From contig JAAFKA010000008.1 in assembly GCA_013299115.1 (NCBI GenBank), positions 124,001 through 188,000 on the forward strand: a DNA stretch of 64,000 nt, written 5' to 3'. Under the pieces are notes generated by a model. The model did no database searches, had not been told where the DNA came from, and saw only the letters and a list, made by a program, of their open reading frames with translations. The position numbers and the translations under genes are program-made. Positions within the stretch are counted from its first letter, which is position 1. Every line of letters starts with the position of its first letter. Positions 5,910 through 52,357 of the stretch are shown here, in pieces. The DNA comes from Cytophagales bacterium (GTDB taxonomy: Bacteria; Bacteroidota; Bacteroidia; Cytophagales; Thermoflexibacteraceae).

Positions 5910-6524
5910 CTATTTATTTGCTATTGAAACATCTAAAATCCATTGCAAAACTGCTAAAACATTGTGCGGTGCTGCTAAGTTTAGTGGTACAAAATTTGTG
6001 TCTATATAGAGGTTTTTGCCTTCCAATTTCATAAAACACCACGAAAAAGCATTGGTAACACAGCCATAAATTACTTTTTGTGGTTGTCCTTTTCTTTCAT
6101 TAAATAGTTGGGCTGCATACATTTCTGCACCACATTGGGCAAAACCTTTCTCTATTTCGGCGTTTTTTGCTTCGAGCAAGCAAAAAATAGGTGCTGTGAG
6201 TTCCATTTTTTCTACATTCATAGATAACATAAAATCACAAAAACCTAAAAGTTTTAGTTTGCTATCTACATTAAATTCAAAGCCTGAAAAAATTTTGAAT
6301 TTATCGGGATTATGACGGCGGAGTTCTTTTAAAATAGGAACTACAACAAATTCAGATTTTGCCTTTTCGGTGGTAAGGGTTTCTCGGCTTGCTTCTGCTA
6401 AATCGTCTAAAATTTTTTGTGAACTTGCAAAATTTGAAAACTGTCCTAACCAAGCTGTTTGAAAATCATTAATTCCTAAATCTGTTTGTAATTGTTCTAA
6501 TCTCTTAAATTTGTTATACGCCAT
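5910..6524 (-). CDS. Hypothetical protein with PD-(D/E)XK nuclease-like motifs
   Basis: 204 residues; the gene name is not known to me. The arrangement LLGFCDFMLS, then IFCLLEAKN, then FAQCGAEMYAA resembles the D...ExK...QxxxY core of PD-(D/E)XK folds (RecB/Cas4-like), at about residues 94-146. An N-terminal region rich in Glu and Lys contains EKAKSEFVVVPILKELRR, common in such proteins next to their first helix. It may be a nuclease-fold protein without known specificity; catalytic competence is not shown. It stands alone between an A2M fragment and the IS1 relic, so it may have been carried in by rearrangement. Confidence 0.6.
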   Translation of the reverse strand: MAYNKFKRLEQLQTDLGINDFQTAWLGQFSNFASSQKILDDLAEASRETLTTEKAKSEFVVVPILKELRRHNPDKFKIFSGFEFNVDSKLKLLGFCDFMLSMNVEKMELTAPIFCLLEAKNAEIEKGFAQCGAEMYAAQLFNERKGQPQKVIYGCVTNAFSWCFMKLEGKNLYIDTNFVPLNLAAPHNVLAVLQWILDVSIANK

Positions 6525-6629
6525 AATTTTATTCGTTTCGTTTTCACAAAGATAGGGAAATTTATAGATAAAATTGCAAAATTGATATTTTTGTCATCTT
6601 GCAATGCTCCTACGAGGGGATAAACCTAA

Positions 6630-6791
6630 GCACAAAAAAAGACTGCCCAAACCATAGAAATTCCTGCCTCGCTCAAAGCAGACACGATAAGCAAAGTTAC
6701 TTATACCTACAAAGGGAAAACCTACAAACAACAAGCATTTATAGATTTGGTTTATACAAAAGCAGCACAGAAAGATAAATGGTGGTGGTAA
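6630..6791 (+). pseudogene. Fragment of the secreted-protein gene found intact at 15481-16050
   Basis: Translates to 53 residues beginning AQKKTAQTIEIPASLKADTI. It matches mature residues of the 189-residue exported protein on the minus strand at 15481-16050, then ends in the IS1 terminal repeat (...WWW and stop). The signal peptide end and all of the C-terminal part are missing. It appears to have been cut by IS insertion. Confidence 0.75.
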
Positions 6792-7455
6792 AAAATGTAT
6801 GATAATCTAAGTAATTGACAATGAGTTAGTTATCTTTGTAAAACCTTCTAAAACTTTACAAAAATGATACACTGTCCTCATTGTCAAAGCAAAAATATAA
6901 ATAAAAACGGTAAAAAAGCTAATAGCAAGCAAAATTATTTATGCCGTACTTGTGGTAAACAATTTCAAACTGAGTATAAAAATCAAGGCTGTAACCCCGT
7001 TGTTAAAAATTACGTTGAAACATCATTGTGTCGAAATTGTGGAATTACAGACATAAAAAAATATTTAATGGGGGCTGCCATCAGCTGAGTAAACCTTACA
7101 TTTTAAATACTTTGATAAATTATGCAGAAAACTTAGAAATAAAGCCACAAAAACAGCACTATAAAAGTTTACAAATCGACGAATTTTGGACAGACGAATT
7201 TTGGACATATGTTGGTTCTAAAAAGAATAAGAAATGGCTTCTATATGCTTATTGCCCTGAAAAACAAGAAGTTGTGGCTTATGTTTTTGGAGATAGAAGT
7301 GAAAAAACAATTAAAGACTTATATGCAAAATTAGCTGAAAATAATATTAGTGTGGATGAATTTTGTACTGATAATTGGAAAGCTTTTGCGAAAATATTAC
7401 CCAAAAAGAAACATAAAATTGGTAAAAAAACTATCATACTTTTTTTACCACTACC
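6781..7455 (+). mobile_element. IS1-family element, left copy, 3' part deleted
   Basis: Ends are GGTGGTGGTAAAAAATGTAT at 6781 and the matching inverted end TATCATACTTTTTTTACCAC at 7432-7455 (24-base imperfect terminal repeats). Inside are insA- and insB-like frames. At ~675 bp it is shorter than normal IS1 elements, because insB runs into the right end before its last third. No clear target duplication is seen. A second, still shorter relative lies inverted at 17541-17850. Confidence 0.8.
6864..7088 (+). CDS. IS1-type InsA-like zinc-finger/DNA-binding protein
   Basis: 74 residues with the IS1 InsA pattern: CPHCQSKNINKNGKKANSKQ, then YLCRTCGKQFQTEYK, which is a four-Cys zinc ribbon, and a short helical tail with CRNCGI. 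In IS1 elements InsA alone represses, and a -1 shift on an A-rich slippery site makes the InsAB' transposase. An A7 run lies near 7056-7063 at the point where the second frame takes over. Shares its N-terminal ~65 residues with the chimeric ORF at 17321-17767. Confidence 0.75.
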   Translation: MIHCPHCQSKNINKNGKKANSKQNYLCRTCGKQFQTEYKNQGCNPVVKNYVETSLCRNCGITDIKKYLMGAAIS

Positions 7456-7513
7456 AATTCGTAAGGTACAGACAACCATTTGTCTAATAACTCACACCCT
7501 GTATTTCGGTTGA
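7028..7513 (+). pseudogene. IS1-type InsB-like transposase, truncated
   Basis: The second frame of the element. LQIDEFWTYVGSKKNKKWLL carries the first catalytic Asp region and DEFCTDNWKAFAKILPKKKH the second. The protein then passes straight into the terminal repeat (KIGKKTIILFLPLPI), so the last third of the InsB domain, with the catalytic Glu, is missing. A direct repeat inside the core (DEFWTDEFWT) is also seen. The transposase should be inactive unless supplied by another copy. No full-length copy is in this window. Confidence 0.75.
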
Positions 7514-7585
7514 GTGCAAAGGCATCAAGCACATCTTCAATGTCTGATTTTAGTTTGATTGGTGTCGTTTACATATTTTATTGAG
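7456..7585 (-). pseudogene. Short gene relic after the IS1 copy
   Basis: The minus strand reads IKLKSDIEDVLDAFALNRNT followed by GCELLDKWLSVPYE up to the IS end, without a start codon and with a stop just upstream. It looks like the N-terminal part of a protein cut off by the element. I cannot assign it to a family with confidence. Confidence 0.35.
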
Positions 7586-7592
7586 TGATAGA

Positions 7593-7656
7593 CAAAATTA
7601 ACAAATATTACCTCATTTTCAAAAATTTACCCTTTCCTTTTGTGGAATTTCCTATC
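7593..7656 (+). repeat. 64-bp direct repeat, left copy
   Basis: 61 of 64 bases match 8260-8323. The two copies enclose the DUF433/DUF5615 gene pair, and the stop codon of the DUF5615 gene falls on the inner edge of this copy. Confidence 0.8.
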
Positions 7657-8008
7657 AATAAGCAATAATACTTTCTCTATCAAATTTTACTAACTCTGCT
7701 CCTTCCTCAAAAGCTATAATAATCTTGTAGAGATAATTTTCAAAATATTGCAATAATTCTTTATTGCTAATATTGCCAAACTGCAACAATAAAACTTTTG
7801 GAGGTGAGCCTTTTAAGAGATAATTATCCAAAAAATCACTGTCTTTCGTTGCAATAATTCTATTCTCCTCTACGGCAATATGTATTATTTCTGTGTCTTG
7901 CAATAAATGACCGTCTGCAAAAAAAGTTGTGTGAATAGCATCAAACCCTTTTTCTACTAAAAATTTGGCTAACGCAGGGGGCAACTGTGTATCAACAATA
8001 AATTTCAT
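7655..8008 (-). CDS. DUF5615 PIN-like toxin
   Basis: 117 residues from the ATG at 8008; an upstream ATG at 8071 would overlap the partner more than usual. The fold is PIN-like: MKFIVDTQLPPALAKFLVEK with an early acidic residue, HTTFFADG, then the acidic RIIATKDSDFLDNYLLKG motif typical of the DUF5615/Mut7-C group. These proteins are the likely ribonuclease toxins of DUF433-linked pairs. Its start codon overlaps the stop of the DUF433 gene by one base (TAATG), showing translational coupling. Confidence 0.85.
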   Translation of the reverse strand: MKFIVDTQLPPALAKFLVEKGFDAIHTTFFADGHLLQDTEIIHIAVEENRIIATKDSDFLDNYLLKGSPPKVLLLQFGNISNKELLQYFENYLYKIIIAFEEGAELVKFDRESIIAY

Positions 8009-8259: not shown

Positions 8260-8323
8260 CAAAATTAGCAATTATTACCTCATTTTCAAAAATTTCCCCT
8301 TTCCTTTTGTGGAATTTCCTATC
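8260..8323 (+). repeat. 64-bp direct repeat, right copy
   Basis: Second copy of the 7593-7656 repeat (3 mismatches). It lies directly upstream of the A2M gene start, so it may carry part of that gene's promoter region; the left copy would then be a duplicate of it. Confidence 0.8.
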
Positions 8324-8354: not shown

Positions 8355-11300
8355 ATGAAACGAATATTTTTTTATAACCTATTGCTAATCATCACATTAG
8401 CCCTAAGCACAACGCCATTATTGGCACAGAAAAAAGCCCCCCAACCCCCAAAGGGGGAGCTAAAAAACTCCACCAAAAAAACTTCCAACTCGAAACAAAC
8501 TCCCCCTTCGGGGGGCGGGGGGCTTACTTCGGGGGTAGGGGGGCTTAAAACCAACAACGATATGCTAAACTTCTTTTTAAAAGATTACGACAAACTCTGG
8601 AAAGAGGTCGACAGCCTCGAACAGAAAGGACTTGTAGAAAGTGCCTATAAAAAAGCTGCGGATATTTACGAAAAGGCGAAAAAAGAAAATAACGCCGACC
8701 AATTTGTAAAAGCTGTGATTTTCAAAATGAAATTCTTTGAAAATAAAGAGGAAGATGCCATCGCAAAATTGATTGAAAGCCTTGAAATTGAGGTAGAAAA
8801 GGCAAGTTTTCCTATAAAACCTGTGCTACATTCTATGTTGGCAGAAACGTATTGGTCGTATTATACGCAAAACCGTTGGAAATTTCAAAACCGTACTGTA
8901 ACCGTTGATTTTGTGCAGAAAGATATTCGGACTTGGGATATTGAAAAATTGACGTTGGCAGTGATAAAAAATCATTATTTGGCAATCAATGATGTTGAGA
9001 ATTTAAAGAAAACAGAACTCAATATTTATCGAGAAATTTTGGGTGACGCTAAATATATTACAAAAGAGGAGTTTGCAAAAAGTCGTTTTCGTGAGTTAAG
9101 ACCTACTTTATATGAATTTTTGGCTCATCGTGCAGTAGATTTTTTTGTGAACTCTGAGGCTGGATTGGCAAAACCAACTTTTGCTTATACAATGGCTGAG
9201 CCTGTTTATTTTGCACCTATTACGGACTTTGCAAACTTCAAAATTGAGAGCAAAGACGAAACAAATTTGTTATTGCAAGGTGTGAAAATTTTGCAGGATT
9301 TGGCGAAATTCCGACTTTCAAAAAACTTACCAAGCCCCAAAGACTTACCAAGTCTTAAAGACTTGGTAAGTTTGCCTTTTTCGGAACTCGATGCTCTGTT
9401 AGATTTGGATTTAAAACGTATTGAAATTGTGTATAAAAACTCGGTTTTGCAAAACAAAGACGTGGCATATTTAGCAGCTTTGCAACAGATGAAAAGCAGT
9501 TATTCAAATTCCAAATTAGTTGGAGATGTGGACATAAATATTGCGGAATATTGGAACTCGAAAGCCGAAAGTTATACCAAAGGACAAAGTGAGGAATTTC
9601 GTTTGGGCTATATCAAGGCTATGCAAATTTGTGAGGAAGTGAGCAAAAAATATCCAAGCACTTACGCAAGTTCTAATGCTAACTCCTTGATTATCAAGAT
9701 AAAATCACAAAGTTTTGGCTTGCAAATGGAAGATATTACCGCAGCCAATAAGCCACAATTATTGTTGGTAACTTCTCGCAATATTGGAAAATTATATTTT
9801 AGGGTTGCAAAAATTAGTTCAGAGGATTTGCGAAAACTCAAACAAGACGACTATTACGAAAATCTTAAAAAATATTATTTGCAACAACTCAATCAAGCAA
9901 CCGTAGCAACTTTTGAAAGTTCAGGTGAATTGCTAAAAGATAATGATTTTCATTCACACAGTTTTGAGATTAAAATTCCTGCCTTGCCTTATGGCGAATA
10001 TGTGGTAATTGCTTGCGAAAATGCCAAATTTGATATACGAACTTTGCCAAATTCTTACATCAATTTTCAGGTGTCGGATATGAGTTTTATTAGCCGAAAA
10101 AATAACAAAACAGGCGAAGAAGAATTTTTTGTACTCAATAGATTGACAGGAAAACCTTTGCCAAAAGTGAAGGCATTGCTCGAAAGTAATGAATATAATT
10201 ACAGTTCTCGCAAATATGAATACAAAAATTTGGGCGAAAAAATGACTGATGACAACGGTTTTTTTGCAGTTAGTCCACGAAAAGACGAAAGAAATAACAG
10301 TTTCAGAGTTTCGCTAACCAATACCAAAAATGACAAAGATAAGTTATTAATTGACAATAATTTTTATGTCAATGTGCCTTATCAGCAACCAAATTATACA
10401 GAATATCAAACTTTTTTCTTTACAGATAGGGCAATTTACAGACCTTCGCAGCCTATTTATTTTAAAATTTTGGCAGTTGCAAAAAATGGAAATAACGAAC
10501 CAAGCAGTCGAAAAACAGATATTTTGCCAAACAAAACTGTTACAGTAAAATTGTTAGACGTTAATTATCAAGAAGTTAGCAAATTGGAATTGACAACCAA
10601 CGAATATGGAACAGCATCGGGAAGTTTCATAGCACCTACGGGCAGGCTTACAGGTATGATGTATTTGCAGTGTGATAATGGCAATTCGCAATATAATTTC
10701 AGAGTAGAAGAATACAAAAGACCAAAATTTGAAGTCATTTTCCCCAGTACGTTGGCAATGGTCGAAGACCTTGACAATCGTACCAAACAACTCAAACCCT
10801 ACAAATTAGGCGAAAAAATTACCATCATTGGGCAAGGAAAAGCCTATTCAGGTGCAAATATTGACAATGCAGCAGTCAAATATCGAGTTGTCCGCAAGGC
10901 ACGTTTTCCATATTGGCGTTGGTGGTGGGTTTCTGCACCAAGTTCTCCACAAATGGAAATTGCAAACGGAATTGCAACAACAGATGCACAAGGAAAATTT
11001 GAAGTTATCTTTGATGCTGTGCCAGATTTGACTATTGATAAAGCTACAAATCCTATATTTTCTTACACCGTTTATGCGGACATTACGGACTTAAATGGCG
11101 AAACACAAAGCGGAGAAAAAACCGTTAGTGTGGGTTACAAAGCAATAGAAATTTCGACAAACATACAAGATAAAAACTTGTTAGGTTTCGAAAAACCTAA
11201 CAAGTTTACAGTGAAAAACCTCAACGGAGAACCCGAAAAATTTAGCGGAACTTATACTTTATCGCAACTTGCAACACCAAATCGTATTTTGCGAAATTGC

Positions 11301-14300
11301 TATTGGGCAAGACCAGATAAATTTTATATTGCCCAAGCTGAATTTGAGAAAGATTTTCCAAATGACGTTTTCCAAAATGAAGACAAAATGGAAAATTGGG
11401 CAAAAACACAACTAAAAAATGGCGAAATTAACACAGAGAAACCTGAATTGACAGACTTAAAAACCTTAAAAACAGGTGCTTATTGTCTGAAAATTGAAGG
11501 GAAAGATGTGTTTGGGGAAGTGGTGGAATATGAAAAATATTTTACAGTTTACAACCCACAAGATACAAAACCAAATTTGCCGACAGATTTTGAATTTACA
11601 GCTTTAAAAGCAAGTTGCGAAGTTGGCGAAACTGCAAAAATCTTAGTATCAAGTAGTTATACTGATTTTATGTTGCGTTATGAAATTTGGCAAGGCAGCA
11701 GTTTGTTGTCAAAACAAGAAATTGCGTTGTCAAATTCTCAAAAAGTCATAGAAATTCCTATCATAGAAAGTTATCGTGGCAATATTTCGGTTATTGGCAT
11801 TGCCATTTATAATGGTCGTGAGTACAAATTTCAGCAAAATATTGACGTGCCTTACACCAACAAAGACCTCGATATTAGTTTTGAAACTTTTAGGGACAAA
11901 CTCCAACCTGGGCAACAAGAAGAATGGAAAATTAAAATCAAACCCAAATTAGGTGATAAAATGATGGCAGAAATGGTAGCAACTTTATATGATGCTTCAC
12001 TTGATGTTTTTGCTAAAAATAATTTTATGTTTGATTATTTGAACTATAATTATTTGGCTGCCAACTGGAATGGTTACGGTTTCAAAACTGAAAATGGTAG
12101 TTTTTTAGTCAATTATCCTTCGGGCTATTATTCACCAATTCAACGCTATTACGATAACTTAAATTGGTTTGGTTTTAACTTAAATTCTTGGCAGTATCGT
12201 TATTTTGGGCGTATGCGAAATGAGGGAATGGTGATGAAGATGGCTGCACCAATGAAAAAGGCAAAAAATGGTGGTGGAAAGGAAGATAAAGAAATAGAAC
12301 TAAACGTACAAATGGAAACTGACGATAGTTCTTTAAATGAAGTTGTTGTAACAGCTTTTGGTGTAGAAACTAAGACAGCAACAACAGGGAATGCAGTAAA
12401 ACAACTTCCAAATGAAATTGAAAAAGAAGAAACAGATTTTAGTGATGTGAAAGTCCGCACAAATTTTAATGAAACTGCGTTTTTTGAACCTCATTTGCAG
12501 ACAGATAGCGAAGGCAATATTGTGGTAAAATTCACTGTTCCCGAAGCCTTGACGAAGTGGCAACTATTGGGTTTTGCACATACCAAAGATTTGAAATATG
12601 GTTTTGTGGAAAACAGTTTGGTAACGCAAAAAGATTTGATGCTTGTGCCAAATGCACCGAGATTTTTCAGAGAAAATGACAAAATTGTGTTTAGCACAAA
12701 AATTACGAATTTGTCAGATAAAGACTTAGATACAGAAGTACAACTAAGCGTAAGCCCCAACGAAAGCCCCCTAACCCCCAAAGGGGGGATTACCGCCATT
12801 CCTTTGCAGGTATTTGAGGGTGGCGTTTTAGTTCCCTCCCCTTCGGGGAGGGTTAGGGTGGGGCTGAAAGCAGGACAAAGTAGTTCAGTTTCTTGGTCTT
12901 TTGCCATTCCTGAAAGTGTGCAGGCTTTGACATATAAAATTGTGGCGAAGTCGGGCAGTTTTTCTGATGGCGAAGAAATGACTTTGCCTGTGCTAACCAA
13001 TAGAATGTTGGTAACAGAAACTTTGCCTTTGCCTGTTCGCAGCAAAGAAACTAAACACTTCACTTTCAATAAGTTAGCCGAAAATAAATCGACAACTTTG
13101 CGAAATCATAAATTGACTTTGGAATTTACCTCTAATCCAGCTTGGTATGCTATTCAGGCTCTGCCTTACTTAATGGAATATCCTTATGAATGTGCAGAAC
13201 AGACTTTTAGCCGTTTTTATGCCAATAGCATTGCTTCACACATTGCCAATTCAAGCCCAAAAATCAAAGCCGTTTTTGATAGTTGGAAAAACACGCCAGA
13301 TAGCAAAGCATTGGTTTCAAATTTGGAAAAAAATCAAGAATTGAAAGCCTTGATGCTCGAAGAAACTCCTTGGGTCATACAGGGACAAAATGAAACAGAA
13401 CGTAAAAAACGGGTTGGTTTGCTATTTGATTTGTTGCGTATGGGTTCAGAATTGGACAAGGCAATGACAAAATTAGAGAAAATGCAAGTATCAAATGGTG
13501 GTTTTCCTTGGTTTGACGGTATGCCTGATAGTCGTTGGATAACGCAACACATTGTTTGTGGCATTGGACATTTGAAAAAAATAAAAAGCCCCCTAACCCC
13601 CGAAGGGGGAATAAGCCCCACCCCAGCCCCCAAAGGGGAGGGAGTAAAAACTCCCCCTTCGGGGGCTGGGGGGCTGTCGGCAGGTGAAAGTCGCATTATT
13701 TCCAAAGCTATTCCTTATCTTGATGCAAGAATTAAGGAAGATTACGACAGATTAGTGAAATATTGCAAAGAAAACAAGCTAAAATTGGAGGAACAACGTG
13801 CAGGAACTGATGTTATTCACTACCTCTATACCCGCAGTTTTTTTGTGGAAATGGAAATTGCAAGCAGTTCAAAAGAAGCAGTTAGTTATTATTTGGGACA
13901 AGTTCGCAAGTATTGGTTAGAGAATGGAATTTATATGCAAGGTATGATTGCCTTAGCAGATTTCCGTTTTGAGCAAAATAAAAACCTTATAAGGTTTGAC
14001 AAACCTTATAAGGTTTGCTACAACGACATCATTAACTCCTTGAAAGAGAAGGCATTACATCACGAAGAATTGGGAATGTATTGGAAAGATATGATGAATG
14101 GTTATTATTGGTATCAAGCACCGATTGAAACACAGGCTTTGTTAATTGAGGCTTTTTCGGAAATAAAAAGCCCCCTAACCCCCGAAGGGGGAACAAGCCC
14201 CACCCCAACCCTCCCCAAAGGAGAGGGAGTAAAAACTCCCCCTTCGGGGGCTGGGGGGCTTCACGCTGGGCTTGTTGATGAGATGAAAATTTGGTTATTG

Positions 14301-15089
14301 AAACAAAAGCAAACGCAAGACTGGAAAACTACCAAAGCTACTACGGAGGCTTGTTATGCCTTGTTATTGCAAGGTACGGACTGGTTGGCAGATAGCAAAT
14401 TGGCAGAAGTTACAGTTGGAGGAAGCCCCCTAACCCCCAAGGGGGGGACTGACGTAATTACGTCAAAAACTCCCCCTTTGGGGGGTGGGGGGCTTGACAT
14501 ACAGGCGGAGGCAGGTACAGGTTACTTCAAAACTTCGTGGAGTGGCAGCGAAATTACGCCAGAAATGGGCAAAATTACCGTTACAAATCCTAATAATGTT
14601 GTGGCTTGGGGTGGAATGTATTGGCAATATTTTGAACAATTAGACAAAATTACACCTGCTGAAACTCCATTGAAAATCAACAAACAGTTGTTTTTACAGA
14701 AAAATACGGATAAAGGTTTGGAATTAAGCCCATTAACTGACAAAAATGTGTTAAAAGTTGGTGATTTGGTGAAAGTTCGCATCGAAATTCGTGTGGATAG
14801 GGCAATGGAATATGTGCATTTGAAAGATATGCGTGCAAGTTGTTTTGAGCCTGTGAATGTGTTGTCGGGTTATCGTTATCAAGGTGGTTTGGGTTATTAC
14901 GAAGCCACAAAAGATGCCTCGACAAACTTCTTTATTGGTTGGTTGCCACAAGGTACTTACGTTTTTGAATATCCTTTGCGTGTTACTCACGAAGGCAATT
15001 TCTCAAATGGCATTACCTCTATTCAATGTATGTATGCTCCTGAATTTAGTAGTCATTCGGAAGGGATAAGGGTTGAGGTTGGGAAGTAG
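8355..15089 (+). CDS. Alpha-2-macroglobulin family protein (thioester type) with in-frame palindromic repeats
   Basis: 2244 residues from the ATG at 8355, which gives a clean signal peptide (MKRIFFYNLLLIITLALSTT, cleaved near LLAQ). Bacterial A2Ms are envelope proteins thought to trap foreign proteases. The MG2 motif FFTDRAIYRPSQPIYFK is near residue 690, the A2M core TAFFEPHLQTDSEG near 1380, and the thioester CAEQ at residues 1613-1616 in YPYECAEQTFSRFY. Around 1327-1337 there is LNEVVVTAFGVETKT, which resembles the start of SusC-type plug domains. At least nine palindromic repeats lie in frame (residues ~28-64, 330-340, 799-809, 940-951, 1467-1505, 1744-1773, 1876-1888, 1939-1969, 2024-2047). 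No pbpC-like gene is adjacent. Confidence 0.92.
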   Translation: MKRIFFYNLLLIITLALSTTPLLAQKKAPQPPKGELKNSTKKTSNSKQTPPSGGGGLTSGVGGLKTNNDMLNFFLKDYDKLWKEVDSLEQKGLVESAYKKAADIYEKAKKENNADQFVKAVIFKMKFFENKEEDAIAKLIESLEIEVEKASFPIKPVLHSMLAETYWSYYTQNRWKFQNRTVTVDFVQKDIRTWDIEKLTLAVIKNHYLAINDVENLKKTELNIYREILGDAKYITKEEFAKSRFRELRPTLYEFLAHRAVDFFVNSEAGLAKPTFAYTMAEPVYFAPITDFANFKIESKDETNLLLQGVKILQDLAKFRLSKNLPSPKDLPSLKDLVSLPFSELDALLDLDLKRIEIVYKNSVLQNKDVAYLAALQQMKSSYSNSKLVGDVDINIAEYWNSKAESYTKGQSEEFRLGYIKAMQICEEVSKKYPSTYASSNANSLIIKIKSQSFGLQMEDITAANKPQLLLVTSRNIGKLYFRVAKISSEDLRKLKQDDYYENLKKYYLQQLNQATVATFESSGELLKDNDFHSHSFEIKIPALPYGEYVVIACENAKFDIRTLPNSYINFQVSDMSFISRKNNKTGEEEFFVLNRLTGKPLPKVKALLESNEYNYSSRKYEYKNLGEKMTDDNGFFAVSPRKDERNNSFRVSLTNTKNDKDKLLIDNNFYVNVPYQQPNYTEYQTFFFTDRAIYRPSQPIYFKILAVAKNGNNEPSSRKTDILPNKTVTVKLLDVNYQEVSKLELTTNEYGTASGSFIAPTGRLTGMMYLQCDNGNSQYNFRVEEYKRPKFEVIFPSTLAMVEDLDNRTKQLKPYKLGEKITIIGQGKAYSGANIDNAAVKYRVVRKARFPYWRWWWVSAPSSPQMEIANGIATTDAQGKFEVIFDAVPDLTIDKATNPIFSYTVYADITDLNGETQSGEKTVSVGYKAIEISTNIQDKNLLGFEKPNKFTVKNLNGEPEKFSGTYTLSQLATPNRILRNCYWARPDKFYIAQAEFEKDFPNDVFQNEDKMENWAKTQLKNGEINTEKPELTDLKTLKTGAYCLKIEGKDVFGEVVEYEKYFTVYNPQDTKPNLPTDFEFTALKASCEVGETAKILVSSSYTDFMLRYEIWQGSSLLSKQEIALSNSQKVIEIPIIESYRGNISVIGIAIYNGREYKFQQNIDVPYTNKDLDISFETFRDKLQPGQQEEWKIKIKPKLGDKMMAEMVATLYDASLDVFAKNNFMFDYLNYNYLAANWNGYGFKTENGSFLVNYPSGYYSPIQRYYDNLNWFGFNLNSWQYRYFGRMRNEGMVMKMAAPMKKAKNGGGKEDKEIELNVQMETDDSSLNEVVVTAFGVETKTATTGNAVKQLPNEIEKEETDFSDVKVRTNFNETAFFEPHLQTDSEGNIVVKFTVPEALTKWQLLGFAHTKDLKYGFVENSLVTQKDLMLVPNAPRFFRENDKIVFSTKITNLSDKDLDTEVQLSVSPNESPLTPKGGITAIPLQVFEGGVLVPSPSGRVRVGLKAGQSSSVSWSFAIPESVQALTYKIVAKSGSFSDGEEMTLPVLTNRMLVTETLPLPVRSKETKHFTFNKLAENKSTTLRNHKLTLEFTSNPAWYAIQALPYLMEYPYECAEQTFSRFYANSIASHIANSSPKIKAVFDSWKNTPDSKALVSNLEKNQELKALMLEETPWVIQGQNETERKKRVGLLFDLLRMGSELDKAMTKLEKMQVSNGGFPWFDGMPDSRWITQHIVCGIGHLKKIKSPLTPEGGISPTPAPKGEGVKTPPSGAGGLSAGESRIISKAIPYLDARIKEDYDRLVKYCKENKLKLEEQRAGTDVIHYLYTRSFFVEMEIASSSKEAVSYYLGQVRKYWLENGIYMQGMIALADFRFEQNKNLIRFDKPYKVCYNDIINSLKEKALHHEELGMYWKDMMNGYYWYQAPIETQALLIEAFSEIKSPLTPEGGTSPTPTLPKGEGVKTPPSGAGGLHAGLVDEMKIWLLKQKQTQDWKTTKATTEACYALLLQGTDWLADSKLAEVTVGGSPLTPKGGTDVITSKTPPLGGGGLDIQAEAGTGYFKTSWSGSEITPEMGKITVTNPNNVVAWGGMYWQYFEQLDKITPAETPLKINKQLFLQKNTDKGLELSPLTDKNVLKVGDLVKVRIEIRVDRAMEYVHLKDMRASCFEPVNVLSGYRYQGGLGYYEATKDASTNFFIGWLPQGTYVFEYPLRVTHEGNFSNGITSIQCMYAPEFSSHSEGIRVEVGK
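8435..8546 (+). repeat. GC-rich palindromic repeat inside A2M, copy 1
   Basis: C-run/G-run inverted segments (CCCCCCAACCCCCAAAGGGG ... CCCCCTTCGGGGGGCGGGGG) in an otherwise AT-rich gene. Translated as KAPQPPKGELKN ... TPPSGGGGLTSGVGGLK right after the signal peptide, in a frame different from the later copies. Confidence 0.8.
9322..9371 (+). repeat. AT-type palindrome inside A2M
   Basis: ACTTACCAAGTCTT (9343-9356) is the exact reverse complement of AAGACTTGGTAAGT further on, with a degenerate extra arm before it. Translated as LPSPKDLPSLKDLVSLP. Confidence 0.7.
10748..10782 (+). repeat. 35-bp repeat (TACGTTGGCAATGG family) inside A2M
   Basis: Differs by one base from the intergenic copies at 63728-63762 and, inverted, 63775-63809. 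Translated in frame as TLAMVEDLDNR. Confidence 0.75.
11174..11207 (+). repeat. Palindrome inside A2M (AACTTGTTAGGTTT type)
   Basis: AAACTTGTTAGGTTT and AAACCTAACAAGTTT are exact reverse complements around a short loop. Translated as KNLLGFEKPNKFT between two beta-sandwich segments. Confidence 0.7.
12751..12870 (+). repeat. GC-rich palindromic repeat inside A2M, copy 2
   Basis: Composite of CCCCCTAACCCCCAAAGGGG and CCCTCCCCTTCGGGGAGGG arms. Translated as SPLTPKGG ... VPSPSGRVRVGLKAG between two A2M beta-sheet segments. Confidence 0.8.
13586..13675 (+). repeat. GC-rich palindromic repeat inside A2M, copy 3
   Basis: About 90 bases, nearly identical to 14169-14261. Translated as SPLTPEGGISPTPAPKGEGV, then KTPPSGAGGL. 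Sits in the helical thioester domain between predicted helices. Confidence 0.85.
13980..14017 (+). repeat. AAACCTTATAAGGTTT tandem palindrome inside A2M
   Basis: Two copies of a self-complementary AAACCTTATAAGGTTT-type unit separated by 3 bases; translated as KNLIRFDKPYKVCYN. The same type of sequence forms the hairpin after the gene at 15100-15138. Confidence 0.75.
14169..14261 (+). repeat. GC-rich palindromic repeat inside A2M, copy 4
   Basis: Translated as SPLTPEGGTSPTPTLPKGEG, then VKTPPSGAGGL. Nearly the same as copy 3, which suggests recent spread or gene conversion within the gene. Confidence 0.85.
14424..14496 (+). repeat. GC-rich palindromic repeat inside A2M, copy 5
   Basis: CCCCCTAACCCCCAAGGGGG and CCCCCTTTGGGGGGTGGGGG arms around a GACGTAATTACGTC palindrome. 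Translated as SPLTPKGGTDVITSKTPPLG, then GGGL. Confidence 0.85.
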
Positions 15090-16189: not shown

Positions 16190-16267
16190 ATTACCTCTAT
16201 TCAATGTATATATGCTCCTGAATTTAGTAGTCATTCGGAGGGGATTAGGGTTGAGGTTGGGAAGTAA
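16190..16267 (+). pseudogene. Fragment of an A2M gene 3' end (right copy)
   Basis: 78 bases matching the last 78 of the A2M gene (15012-15089), still in frame: ITSIQCIYAPEFSSHSEGIR followed by VEVGK and a stop. No upstream coding part remains. Same relationship as the inverted fragment at 5814-5906. Confidence 0.8.
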
Positions 16268-24596: not shown

Positions 24597-25469
24597 ATGC
24601 AAGACCACGAAATAGATAAAATGTTCCGCAAGCAGTTGGAGGGTTACGCAAAACAACCTTCGCCAGAGGCTTGGGATAAATTGGAAGCAGCCTTGCACCC
24701 ACGCAAACGGCGTTTGGTGGTGGCGTGGCGAATGGCAGCAGGGGTGGCATTGTTTGCAGGCTTGTTGGGCATAGGCAGGTGGTATTTGGCAACTCCCACA
24801 ACTAATGACATCATTGCAAACAAACAAGTATTGCCTATTGCTAAACCAACAGATTCGACTGAAAAATTGTTTTTGCCCGCCACACAAGCACAAGCAAAAC
24901 AGTTGGTTGCCACTACAAATAATGCAAAATATTTATCAGACACCTCTAAGGTGTCGGATAATGCAAAATATTTATCAGACACCTCCAAGGTGTCGGATAA
25001 ATGGGATTTTAAATCTGGGGAGGGAATTGCCAAAAACGAAAAAGCAGGCAAAAAAACTATCCAAAGAGTATATTTATCAGACACCTCTAAGGTGTCTGAT
25101 AAATGGGGCTTAGCAAAGGTAGAGCAAAATCAAACTGTTGAGATTGAAAATATTGCTCAAAATAAACAAGTTGTTCAGTTGCCAATAGAGCCAACAAATG
25201 AACAAAATGTGCAAAATAAGCAAGAAAACGCAACCATTGTGGCAAAAAATGCAACGGCAACGGAAGAGGAAAGCAACGCAATAGAAGTAGTGGTAAAAGT
25301 TGATAATTTGCCAACTACCACACAAACAGAGGAAGTAGCACCCAAAAAACGCAAATTCTTTGGTAGAATTTTGAATAAACTCAAAGAAGGCGAGGCTTTG
25401 ACCCTGAAAGATGTAGGGGTAAACACCGCCAAGTTGCCTAAGTTTTTGCAAAGAGAAAACAGTGATTAG
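24597..25469 (+). CDS. Single-span membrane protein, putative anti-sigma factor, with coding palindromes
   Basis: 290 residues. N-terminal cytosolic part (MQDHEIDKMFRKQLEGYAKQ, PSPEAWDKLEAAL) resembles Bacteroidota anti-sigma-like proteins; one span lies at about residues 45-63 (MAAGVALFAGLLGIGRWYL). The outer part is low-complexity and contains the peptide YLSDTSKVSD three times, each coded by a palindromic repeat. Ends with a basic KKRKFFGRILNKLKEG. Six bases after the sigma gene, so co-transcribed. No cupin or zinc-finger anti-sigma domain is visible, which keeps the role tentative. Confidence 0.6.
   Translation: MQDHEIDKMFRKQLEGYAKQPSPEAWDKLEAALHPRKRRLVVAWRMAAGVALFAGLLGIGRWYLATPTTNDIIANKQVLPIAKPTDSTEKLFLPATQAQAKQLVATTNNAKYLSDTSKVSDNAKYLSDTSKVSDKWDFKSGEGIAKNEKAGKKTIQRVYLSDTSKVSDKWGLAKVEQNQTVEIENIAQNKQVVQLPIEPTNEQNVQNKQENATIVAKNATATEEESNAIEVVVKVDNLPTTTQTEEVAPKKRKFFGRILNKLKEGEALTLKDVGVNTAKLPKFLQRENSD
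24933..25102 (+). repeat. Three in-frame copies of the YLSDTSKVSD palindrome
   Basis: Copies at 24933-24961, 24972-25000 and 25074-25102. Each is TTATCAGACACCTC...AAGGTGTC(G/T)GATAA and is translated in the same frame. Other copies are intergenic at 42919-42949 and, diverged, 59427-59452. Confidence 0.85.
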
Positions 25470-37664: not shown

Positions 37665-37704
37665 ATTAGAGGTTATTACGGTACAAATCGTAATAACCTC
37701 TATT
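37665..37704 (+). repeat. Short derivative of the AGAGGTTATTACGA element
   Basis: Contains both ends of the elements at 29237 and 59024 (ATTAGAGGTTATTACG and CGTAATAACCTCTATT) with the centre deleted. Confidence 0.75.
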
Positions 37705-52085: not shown

Positions 52086-52107
52086 GACAAGTTTTATTTT
52101 GGTGGTT

Positions 52108-52173
52108 GCAAAAAAGGTGTTGCCAAAGATGACATCTTTGCGAAAGATGTCATCTTTGGCAACACCTTTTTTG
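52108..52173. repeat. Near-perfect long palindrome upstream of the barrel gene
   Basis: AAAAAAGGTGTTGCCAAAGA ... TGACATCTTTGCGAAAGATGTCA ... AACACCTTTTTT: ~30-bp arms with almost no loop. In the barrel gene's direction it lies just before the start and could block or shape its leader; in the other direction it is far from any stop. Confidence 0.8.
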
Positions 52174-52357
52174 CATAACTTCCTTCTTTTGGCTGCAAAG
52201 ATACAAGTTTGTTGCAAATGGCAAGGTTAAAATTTGCTAAATCTTGGAATCAATTTTGAAATGAAATTTGGCAGAATTTTAAGATAAAAATTAGTAATTC
52301 TTCAATTATTTTGCAAAATTTACAAGCAGAAACTTATACTTTACAATTAGCTAATTC

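Follow-up and report, generated by a model that had tools for sequence, protein, structure and literature searches.

In-frame palindromes in an alpha-2-macroglobulin gene of a Cytophagales bacterium and their possible relation to hairpin-framed DUF559 nucleases

The alpha-2-macroglobulin (A2M) gene of a Cytophagales bacterium (the source genome, G000) contains five C-run/G-run (C/G) palindromic clusters and two or three unrelated palindromes, every one of them in frame. The C/G palindromes are probably nuclease-less copies of a family of in-frame, unspliced, homing-like elements that would be mobile, and whose full form would consist of the same kind of arms around a DUF559 domain of ∼110 aa, in frame with a host enzyme. 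Behind this reading stand insertion relative to orthologues, a coding location with a phase bias, arms around a DUF559 domain, the in-frame position of that domain, and shared insertion sites. To our knowledge, the origin of coding palindromes has been open since their description in Rickettsia, and a candidate enzyme makes this origin testable.

The window analyzed here is a stretch of 64,000 nucleotides, and its A2M gene runs on the plus strand from an ATG at 8355 (the more likely start) or a TTG at 8307 to the stop at 15089 without interruption. The product, 2,244 aa counted from ATG 8355, matches the Pfam families A2M, MG2, A2M_BRD, and bMG10 (Table 1). An earlier note on this DNA had described several palindromes within one open reading frame without frame loss, and this is borne out by the five C/G clusters and the further palindromes in a frame that is open from 8355 to 15089. 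Judged by single-strand folding z, the palindromes of the gene exceed chance, with elements 3, 4, and 5 being the three best C/G elements and the TACGTTGG palindrome (−1.9) being weak. The same note had counted four unrelated families, which reduce to two solid classes, C/G-run and AAACYT..AAGRTTT-like, and one weak case; its statement that copies 3 and 4 are nearly identical holds, with 96-98% identity across the shared blocks of the 13586 and 14168 elements. Element 1 lies directly 3' of the signal peptide and translates as APQPPKGE...TPPSGGGGL. A Rfam search of the window at gathering thresholds gave no match, and an RNA family identity for the repeats was dropped on this ground. Near-perfect palindromes of other families are present in predicted genes of the window at 1817-1867, 24970-25002, 25072-25104, 37665-37704, and 52107-52175, and a second copy of the last 25 A2M residues lies at 16190-16264, about 1.1 kb downstream of the gene, with 96% identity.

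Table 1. Features of the A2M gene (window coordinates) and host enzymes with an embedded DUF559 domain (by genome).
Feature	Position or genome	Strand	Basis and remarks
Host gene, bacterial alpha-2-macroglobulin	8355..15089	+	ORF and Pfam
C/G element 1	8434..8546	+	arms 8434-8459, 8500-8525, 8527-8546; folding z −2.1
Palindrome of different family, ACTTACCAAG / AAACTTACCAAG type	9323..9373	+	∼19-aa insertion; folding z −7.7
Imperfect palindrome TACGTTGG	10752..10796	+	13-aa insertion; weak as repeat, folding z −1.9 (10752-10793)
Palindrome AAACTTGTTAGGTTT	11174..11207	+	no net length change vs orthologues
C/G element 2	12764..12865	+	arm 12764-12787 and second-type C/G hairpin 12833-12865; folding z −2.0
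C/G element 3	13586..13676	+	folding z −4.7; low-confidence stretch of model
Palindrome AAACCTTATAAGGTTT (AAACCTTATAAGG element)	13982..14016	+	11-aa insertion; folding z −7.6
C/G element 4	14168..14261	+	clean 30-aa insertion; folding z −4.2; low-confidence stretch of model
C/G element 5	14423..14495	+	canonical 73-nt form, TGACGTAATTACGTCA centre; folding z −6.1
LeuRS with embedded DUF559	G035, G009, G046, G031, G015, G110, G158		host domain scan
MutS with embedded DUF559	G001		host domain scan
MetH with embedded DUF559	G046, G289, G000, G035		host domain scan; G035 by B12 and activation domains
HsdR with embedded DUF559	G071, G187, G319, G315		host domain scan
Type IIG, ISP or N4 methylases with DUF559	G025, G016		host domain scan

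The A2M protein was aligned with 28 orthologue rows, 25-26 of which cover the individual insertion stretches. All 26 covering rows lack three of the inserted peptides, namely 30 aa in element 4, 12 aa around the 12764 arm of element 2, and the 13-aa TACGTTGG insertion. In the other insertion stretches, no more than 3 to 7 of 25-26 rows are filled per column, for the most part with unrelated residues; the maximum is 7 of 25 rows for element 1 (aa 46-64) and 4 of 25 for the insertion of the 9323 palindrome. Since the orthologues are without them, the palindrome peptides of A2M are insertions; the same peptides at the same places, as expected of old protein sequence, were not seen in the 28 rows. 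That every palindrome is an insertion, as had been proposed, applies to most of them, but the copy at 11174 replaces sequence instead of adding to it, and the TACGTTGG type, although its 13 aa are missing from the orthologues, is weak as a palindrome. It is hardly credible that the peptides are old functional linkers shared by descent: the strong preference for one phase and the likeness of the peptides in different hosts speak for such linkers, but the peptides are absent from the A2M and methylmalonyl-CoA mutase (MCM) orthologues and from 8 of 10 DUF559-free LeuRS rows, and their DNA is palindromic and common to unrelated proteins. This reading, already contradicted by the orthologue alignments, was rejected. 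In the loop near A2M aa 1490, differing peptides are found in G009 and G011, of the same family, where they are encoded by palindromic DNA, and in G001, of the same genus, whose insert was judged from the peptide alone. No A2M orthologue with a nuclease was seen among the 28 rows.

An AlphaFold model of the C-terminal 805 aa of A2M (aa 1440-2244; 22 aligned sequences, mean pLDDT 72) contains eight stretches with pLDDT below 50, four of which are largely C/G elements (fragment residues 31-57, 309-333, 501-528, and 591-608). The AAACCTTATAAGG element is predicted to lie in a turn joining two helices (fragment residues 435-449), and the model assigns strand to a portion of element 2 and to the opening residues of element 5. 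According to this model, the palindrome inserts would occupy mainly loops or low-confidence stretches, in agreement with the earlier proposal that the elements are readable in a suitable frame and land where surface loops tolerate them. As an explanation, tolerance appears incomplete, as the link to DUF559 described below suggests a mechanism beyond it.

The canonical short copy, established from paired copies in the genome, comprises 73 nt, namely a AAGCCCCCTAACCCCCGAAGGGGGAA arm, then TGACGTnnnnACGTCA, then the mirrored arm, with a TGACGT..ACGTCA centre between the two C/G hairpin arms; inner modules belonging to a second C/G type are present in some copies. Upon folding, the arms pair with each other and the CGTC letters lie inside the self-pairing central palindrome. 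The canonical element on the sense strand of the gene translates as xSPLTPEGGTDVITSKTPPSGxGGL, and the consensus is free of stops in this preferred phase, the other two phases containing TAA or TGA. For the 149 arms located in frames of 300 aa or more, the preferred phase accounts for 122, the second for 25, and the third for 2, and the T-centred arm lies on the strand of the gene in 45 cases and on the opposite strand, with TAA centres, in 8; p-values on such arm counts overstate significance, since the two arms of one element are not independent.

Matches to the arm AAGCCCCCTAACCCCC with at most one mismatch number 96 in the genome, compared to 7 for a reversed-pattern control. All 96 are covered by the window and the stretches around every match, and 86 of them are coding and 10 intergenic according to a codon-score gene caller, not annotation, some small calls of which are possibly false. 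An excess of copies within genes was not found (86/96 coding compared to 87% for random positions, p 0.54). Since coding copies are expected to be purged in two of three frames, the argument rests on survival and not on excess. A looser pattern yielded 184 arms (161 coding, 19 intergenic, and 4 at edges), and 142 other palindromes were divided into 89 intergenic, 44 coding, and 9 at edges. The stretches around every arm match hold 105 C/G clusters, 90 of which lie wholly within 57 genes. Domain scans, which covered 27 of these 57 host genes, identified MetH, LeuRS, UvrA, SMC, IcmF, a ValRS-like enzyme, acetyl-CoA synthetase, MCM, several Eco57I/ISP enzymes, a pyruvate carboxylase-type biotin-dependent carboxylase, an AcrB-type pump, R-M enzymes, and type IIG restriction enzymes. 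The A2M gene is one of 57 hosts and long, but neither special nor unique: a 1,104-aa Sortilin/BNR-repeat gene (L037:10330-13641, contig G000:C34) exceeds it with seven C/G clusters.

The copy in MCM has an empty site in a same-genus genome at 94-95% protein identity. In the MCM and UvrA comparisons, the junctions are too diverged for a target duplication to be recognized at the DNA level. In the same-genus genome, 13 of 16 arms are coding, all 13 in the same phase, and in G041, which belongs to another family, 19 of 54 arms are coding and 29 intergenic. Three adjoining small lipoprotein-like genes (L078:4992-5555, 6129-6683, and 7309-7893, contig G000:C23) have a C/G arm within or beside the signal peptide (MKNLLKKIRFSPPLGGGGLLLGLLLAYALNSCSLF). 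At L042:4849-8394 (contig G000:C56), a single open frame encodes an RloB-like domain (aa 23-222) followed from aa 241 by a ValRS-like tRNA synthetase, either as a true fusion or as a joined gene pair.

The genome contains three Y1_Tnp (RAYT) genes, and a palindrome type flanking one of them (ACCTATCGGGTGGCT) is also intragenic, in 7 of 9 cases in the stretches examined, which is in line with C/G palindromes being REP-like elements mobilized by RAYT and inserted into genes by chance. RAYT-associated REPs, however, are marked by a RAYT gene flanked by the repeat, and when the flanks of all three genes were inspected, C/G arms were absent (0/3 loci), other palindromes flanking or adjoining each of them. 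Mobilization by RAYT is improbable and was rejected for the C/G elements. One of the three genes (L001, contig G000:C35) is accompanied by an array of CCCTACGTTTCACGTAGGG-type palindromes, and another (L003, contig G000:C11) has TTACCTATCGGGTGGCT palindromes on both sides, this being the type with 7 of 9 intragenic copies.

Comparison of MetH of the source genome with its same-genus orthologue showed a match that breaks at query 241/406, and an NCBIfam scan placed a DUF559 domain (Vsr-like PD-(D/E)XK) at this break, in frame. This domain, the only DUF559 in a search of the whole genome, is flanked by C/G arms of the palindrome family dispersed in the same genome. At the 3' end, the domain continues as TTGACACAATAACGTCAAAAGCCCCC, a sequence almost matching the centre plus right arm of the 73-nt form. 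DUF559 is present in 22 of 59 relatives' genomes (the source genome counted) and in 126 of 296 genomes of the phylum; among the matches listed for the phylum, at least 150, frames of 600 aa or more hold 35, frames of 300-599 aa hold 8, and shorter ones hold 107. Of 59 DUF559 loci, the 58 with sufficient flanking sequence were tested, the threshold being the 99th percentile in a set of 2,000 random windows. Inverted repeats between both flanks, mainly C/G-run hairpins, were above this threshold at 33 of 58 loci (15 of 25 embedded loci, 18 of 32 standalone loci, and 0 of 1 between) compared to ∼1% of random windows, and were not found above it at the other 25. An ATG lies at most 60 codons upstream of DUF559 in 12 of 24 embedded loci, a count that may include host methionines. 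Seven of the 8 genomes with the pattern of CCTCACCCC-type arms have DUF559, some of the counted arms being those of the DUF559 elements themselves and the G001 controls being high; G041, whose copies are mostly non-coding, has 43 arm matches and zero DUF559.

In the predicted structure of a 560-aa MetH piece, the DUF559 block reaches pLDDT ∼83-95 and the palindrome-encoded joints to it stay below 50 (214-276 and 394-402). A Foldseek search with this piece returned MetH structures first and then 3hrl (39% identity, TM 0.88 by target), which is likewise the nearest solved chain by sequence (E 2e-20); the DUF559 domain, about 110 aa long, also matched the homing endonuclease I-Bth0305I (3r3p; prob 1.00, TM 0.75 by target, E 0.007). 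On the basis of these models, the embedded domain is predicted to have the PD-(D/E)XK fold of the I-Bth0305I type. Nucleases of this type are tied to self-splicing introns or inteins, or are free-standing, whereas here the same fold is found, unspliced and in frame, as a loop domain between palindromes. A Hint splicing domain around the nuclease, as in an intein, was not found in the host scans, which gave no Hint/intein family; in some of these scans the cut-off was E 1e-25 or 1e-8, and weak matches could escape. The tree of the domain has poor resolution: the nucleases in HsdR group in one clade spanning families, those in MetH of G000, G046, and G289 in another although that of G000 occupies a different MetH site, and the LeuRS nucleases do not cluster (6 changes compared to a shuffled mean of 6.8).

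Embedded DUF559 domains are flanked by short palindrome peptides, and the hosts identified in scans with a match cut-off of E 1e-25 or 1e-8 include several conserved enzymes (Table 1). In G040, DUF559 is a C-terminal extension behind a PurQ-like domain; at the cut-off used, loci L236, L237, and L239 matched the DUF559 family only, and L256 gave no match. An HsdR gene of G315 (L257:175-3315) has a GIY-YIG domain and a DUF559 domain, so two nuclease kinds may share one host.

Two sites in LeuRS and two in MetH carry the nuclease in some genomes and a palindrome alone in others. LeuRS was compared in 18 rows, one locus per genome, with G019 numbering. At position 297, four genomes have DUF559 and another four a palindromic peptide, the copy of G009 being visible from the 3' side only because the contig ends there; the insert of 14 aa in G014 at this site is of another kind. 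At position ∼532, DUF559 is present in two genomes and a palindrome in G000. Both sites are clean in G019, G003, G012, G020, G002, G006, G004, and G013. The DNA of the short inserts folds strongly in G000, G046, and G031 (z −11 to −6) and more weakly in G001 (z −3.3); at the second site, the G110 and G158 inserts show weak folding (z −2.8 and −2.1). The first MetH site holds DUF559 in G000, palindromes in G001, G006, and G011 (z −9.6, −6.3, and −10.0), and a hardly palindromic insert in G004 (z −2.6), and the second holds DUF559 with C/G arms in G046 and a 73-nt palindrome in G000. No site common to nuclease and short copies was found in the type IIG enzymes.

Coding palindromes and DUF559 genes could also be independent and often adjoin because both persist in the few permissive loops. 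Loops are the sole tolerant places in any case, the short copies of G000 and G025 share two loops of a type IIG enzyme where the nuclease is absent, and G041 has arms and no DUF559. This is, however, difficult to reconcile with the inverted repeats on both sides of the domain, which occur at standalone genes as well, and with the position of the single DUF559 of the source genome between arms of a family dispersed in that same genome, and we regard independence as rather unlikely. Counted against a link to the nuclease are the arms of G041 without DUF559, the 25 unflanked loci, the unshared type IIG sites, the unclustered LeuRS nucleases, the A2M orthologues, none of which was seen to carry a nuclease, and the single nuclease beside the many coding copies of the source genome.

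According to the favoured reading of a homing-like family, the element would insert in frame into protein-coding genes and be translated without splicing. DUF559 would cut empty alleles or target loops, and repair after cutting would copy the element in. Short copies may move in trans or persist after loss of the nuclease, and purifying selection would retain only in-frame copies in loops. With ∼90 coding copies in the source genome for a single nuclease, this reading has to assume spread in trans. We give even weight to the broader proposal that one class of mobile elements homes into conserved enzymes, many of them essential, and remains in them unspliced, with a hairpin-framed Vsr-like nuclease as a loop domain of LeuRS, MetH, MutS, or HsdR, and that its nuclease-less copies are the coding palindromes of this genome and perhaps unexplained ones in other bacteria. 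If so, DUF559, a domain of unknown function, would gain a role, essential enzymes would carry unspliced nuclease domains, and the loops of the hosts would be a readable history of invasion by selfish elements.

In literature without preprints and most subscription papers, DUF559 was not found to be reported inside coding palindromes, nor as an in-frame part of LeuRS or MetH. In the part of Di Nocera 2013 (PMC3733652) used here, Rickettsia palindromic elements (RPEs) and intragenic REPs are described in frame in unrelated ORFs, often as dimers encoding 20-30 aa. The C/G palindromes resemble them in lying in frame within unrelated proteins, with UvrA as a host in both. Most REPs are intergenic (PMC3733652), whereas 161 of 184 arms are coding here and arms surround a nuclease domain. 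The CGTC-tagged REPs, given in the same part of that article as having no dedicated transposase, consist of an unpaired CGTC tag, an 8-9 bp stem, a 4-5 nt loop, and a short tail (PMC3733652); the C/G element differs in that CGTC sits in the self-pairing centre and the arms pair together. Yeast mitochondrial GC clusters are mobile, palindromic, GC-rich elements of 30-80 bp in an AT-rich genome, with ∼120 per genome, some of them within the VAR1/rps3 protein gene and rRNA genes (excerpts of PMC4464245). They are similar to the C/G elements as short GC-rich palindromes, some in a protein gene, but are mostly non-coding, belong to a different organelle system, and have no DUF559 in those excerpts. 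The VsrA of Caulobacter has a DUF559 domain, is a PD-(D/E)XK Vsr-like endonuclease and predicted mismatch-repair enzyme, and is not described as part of a mobile element in the portion of the report drawn on here (PMC12907096). The DNA damage response of a methylase mutant requires VsrA (PMC12907096, same portion), and it follows that a DUF559 domain can act on DNA in cells.
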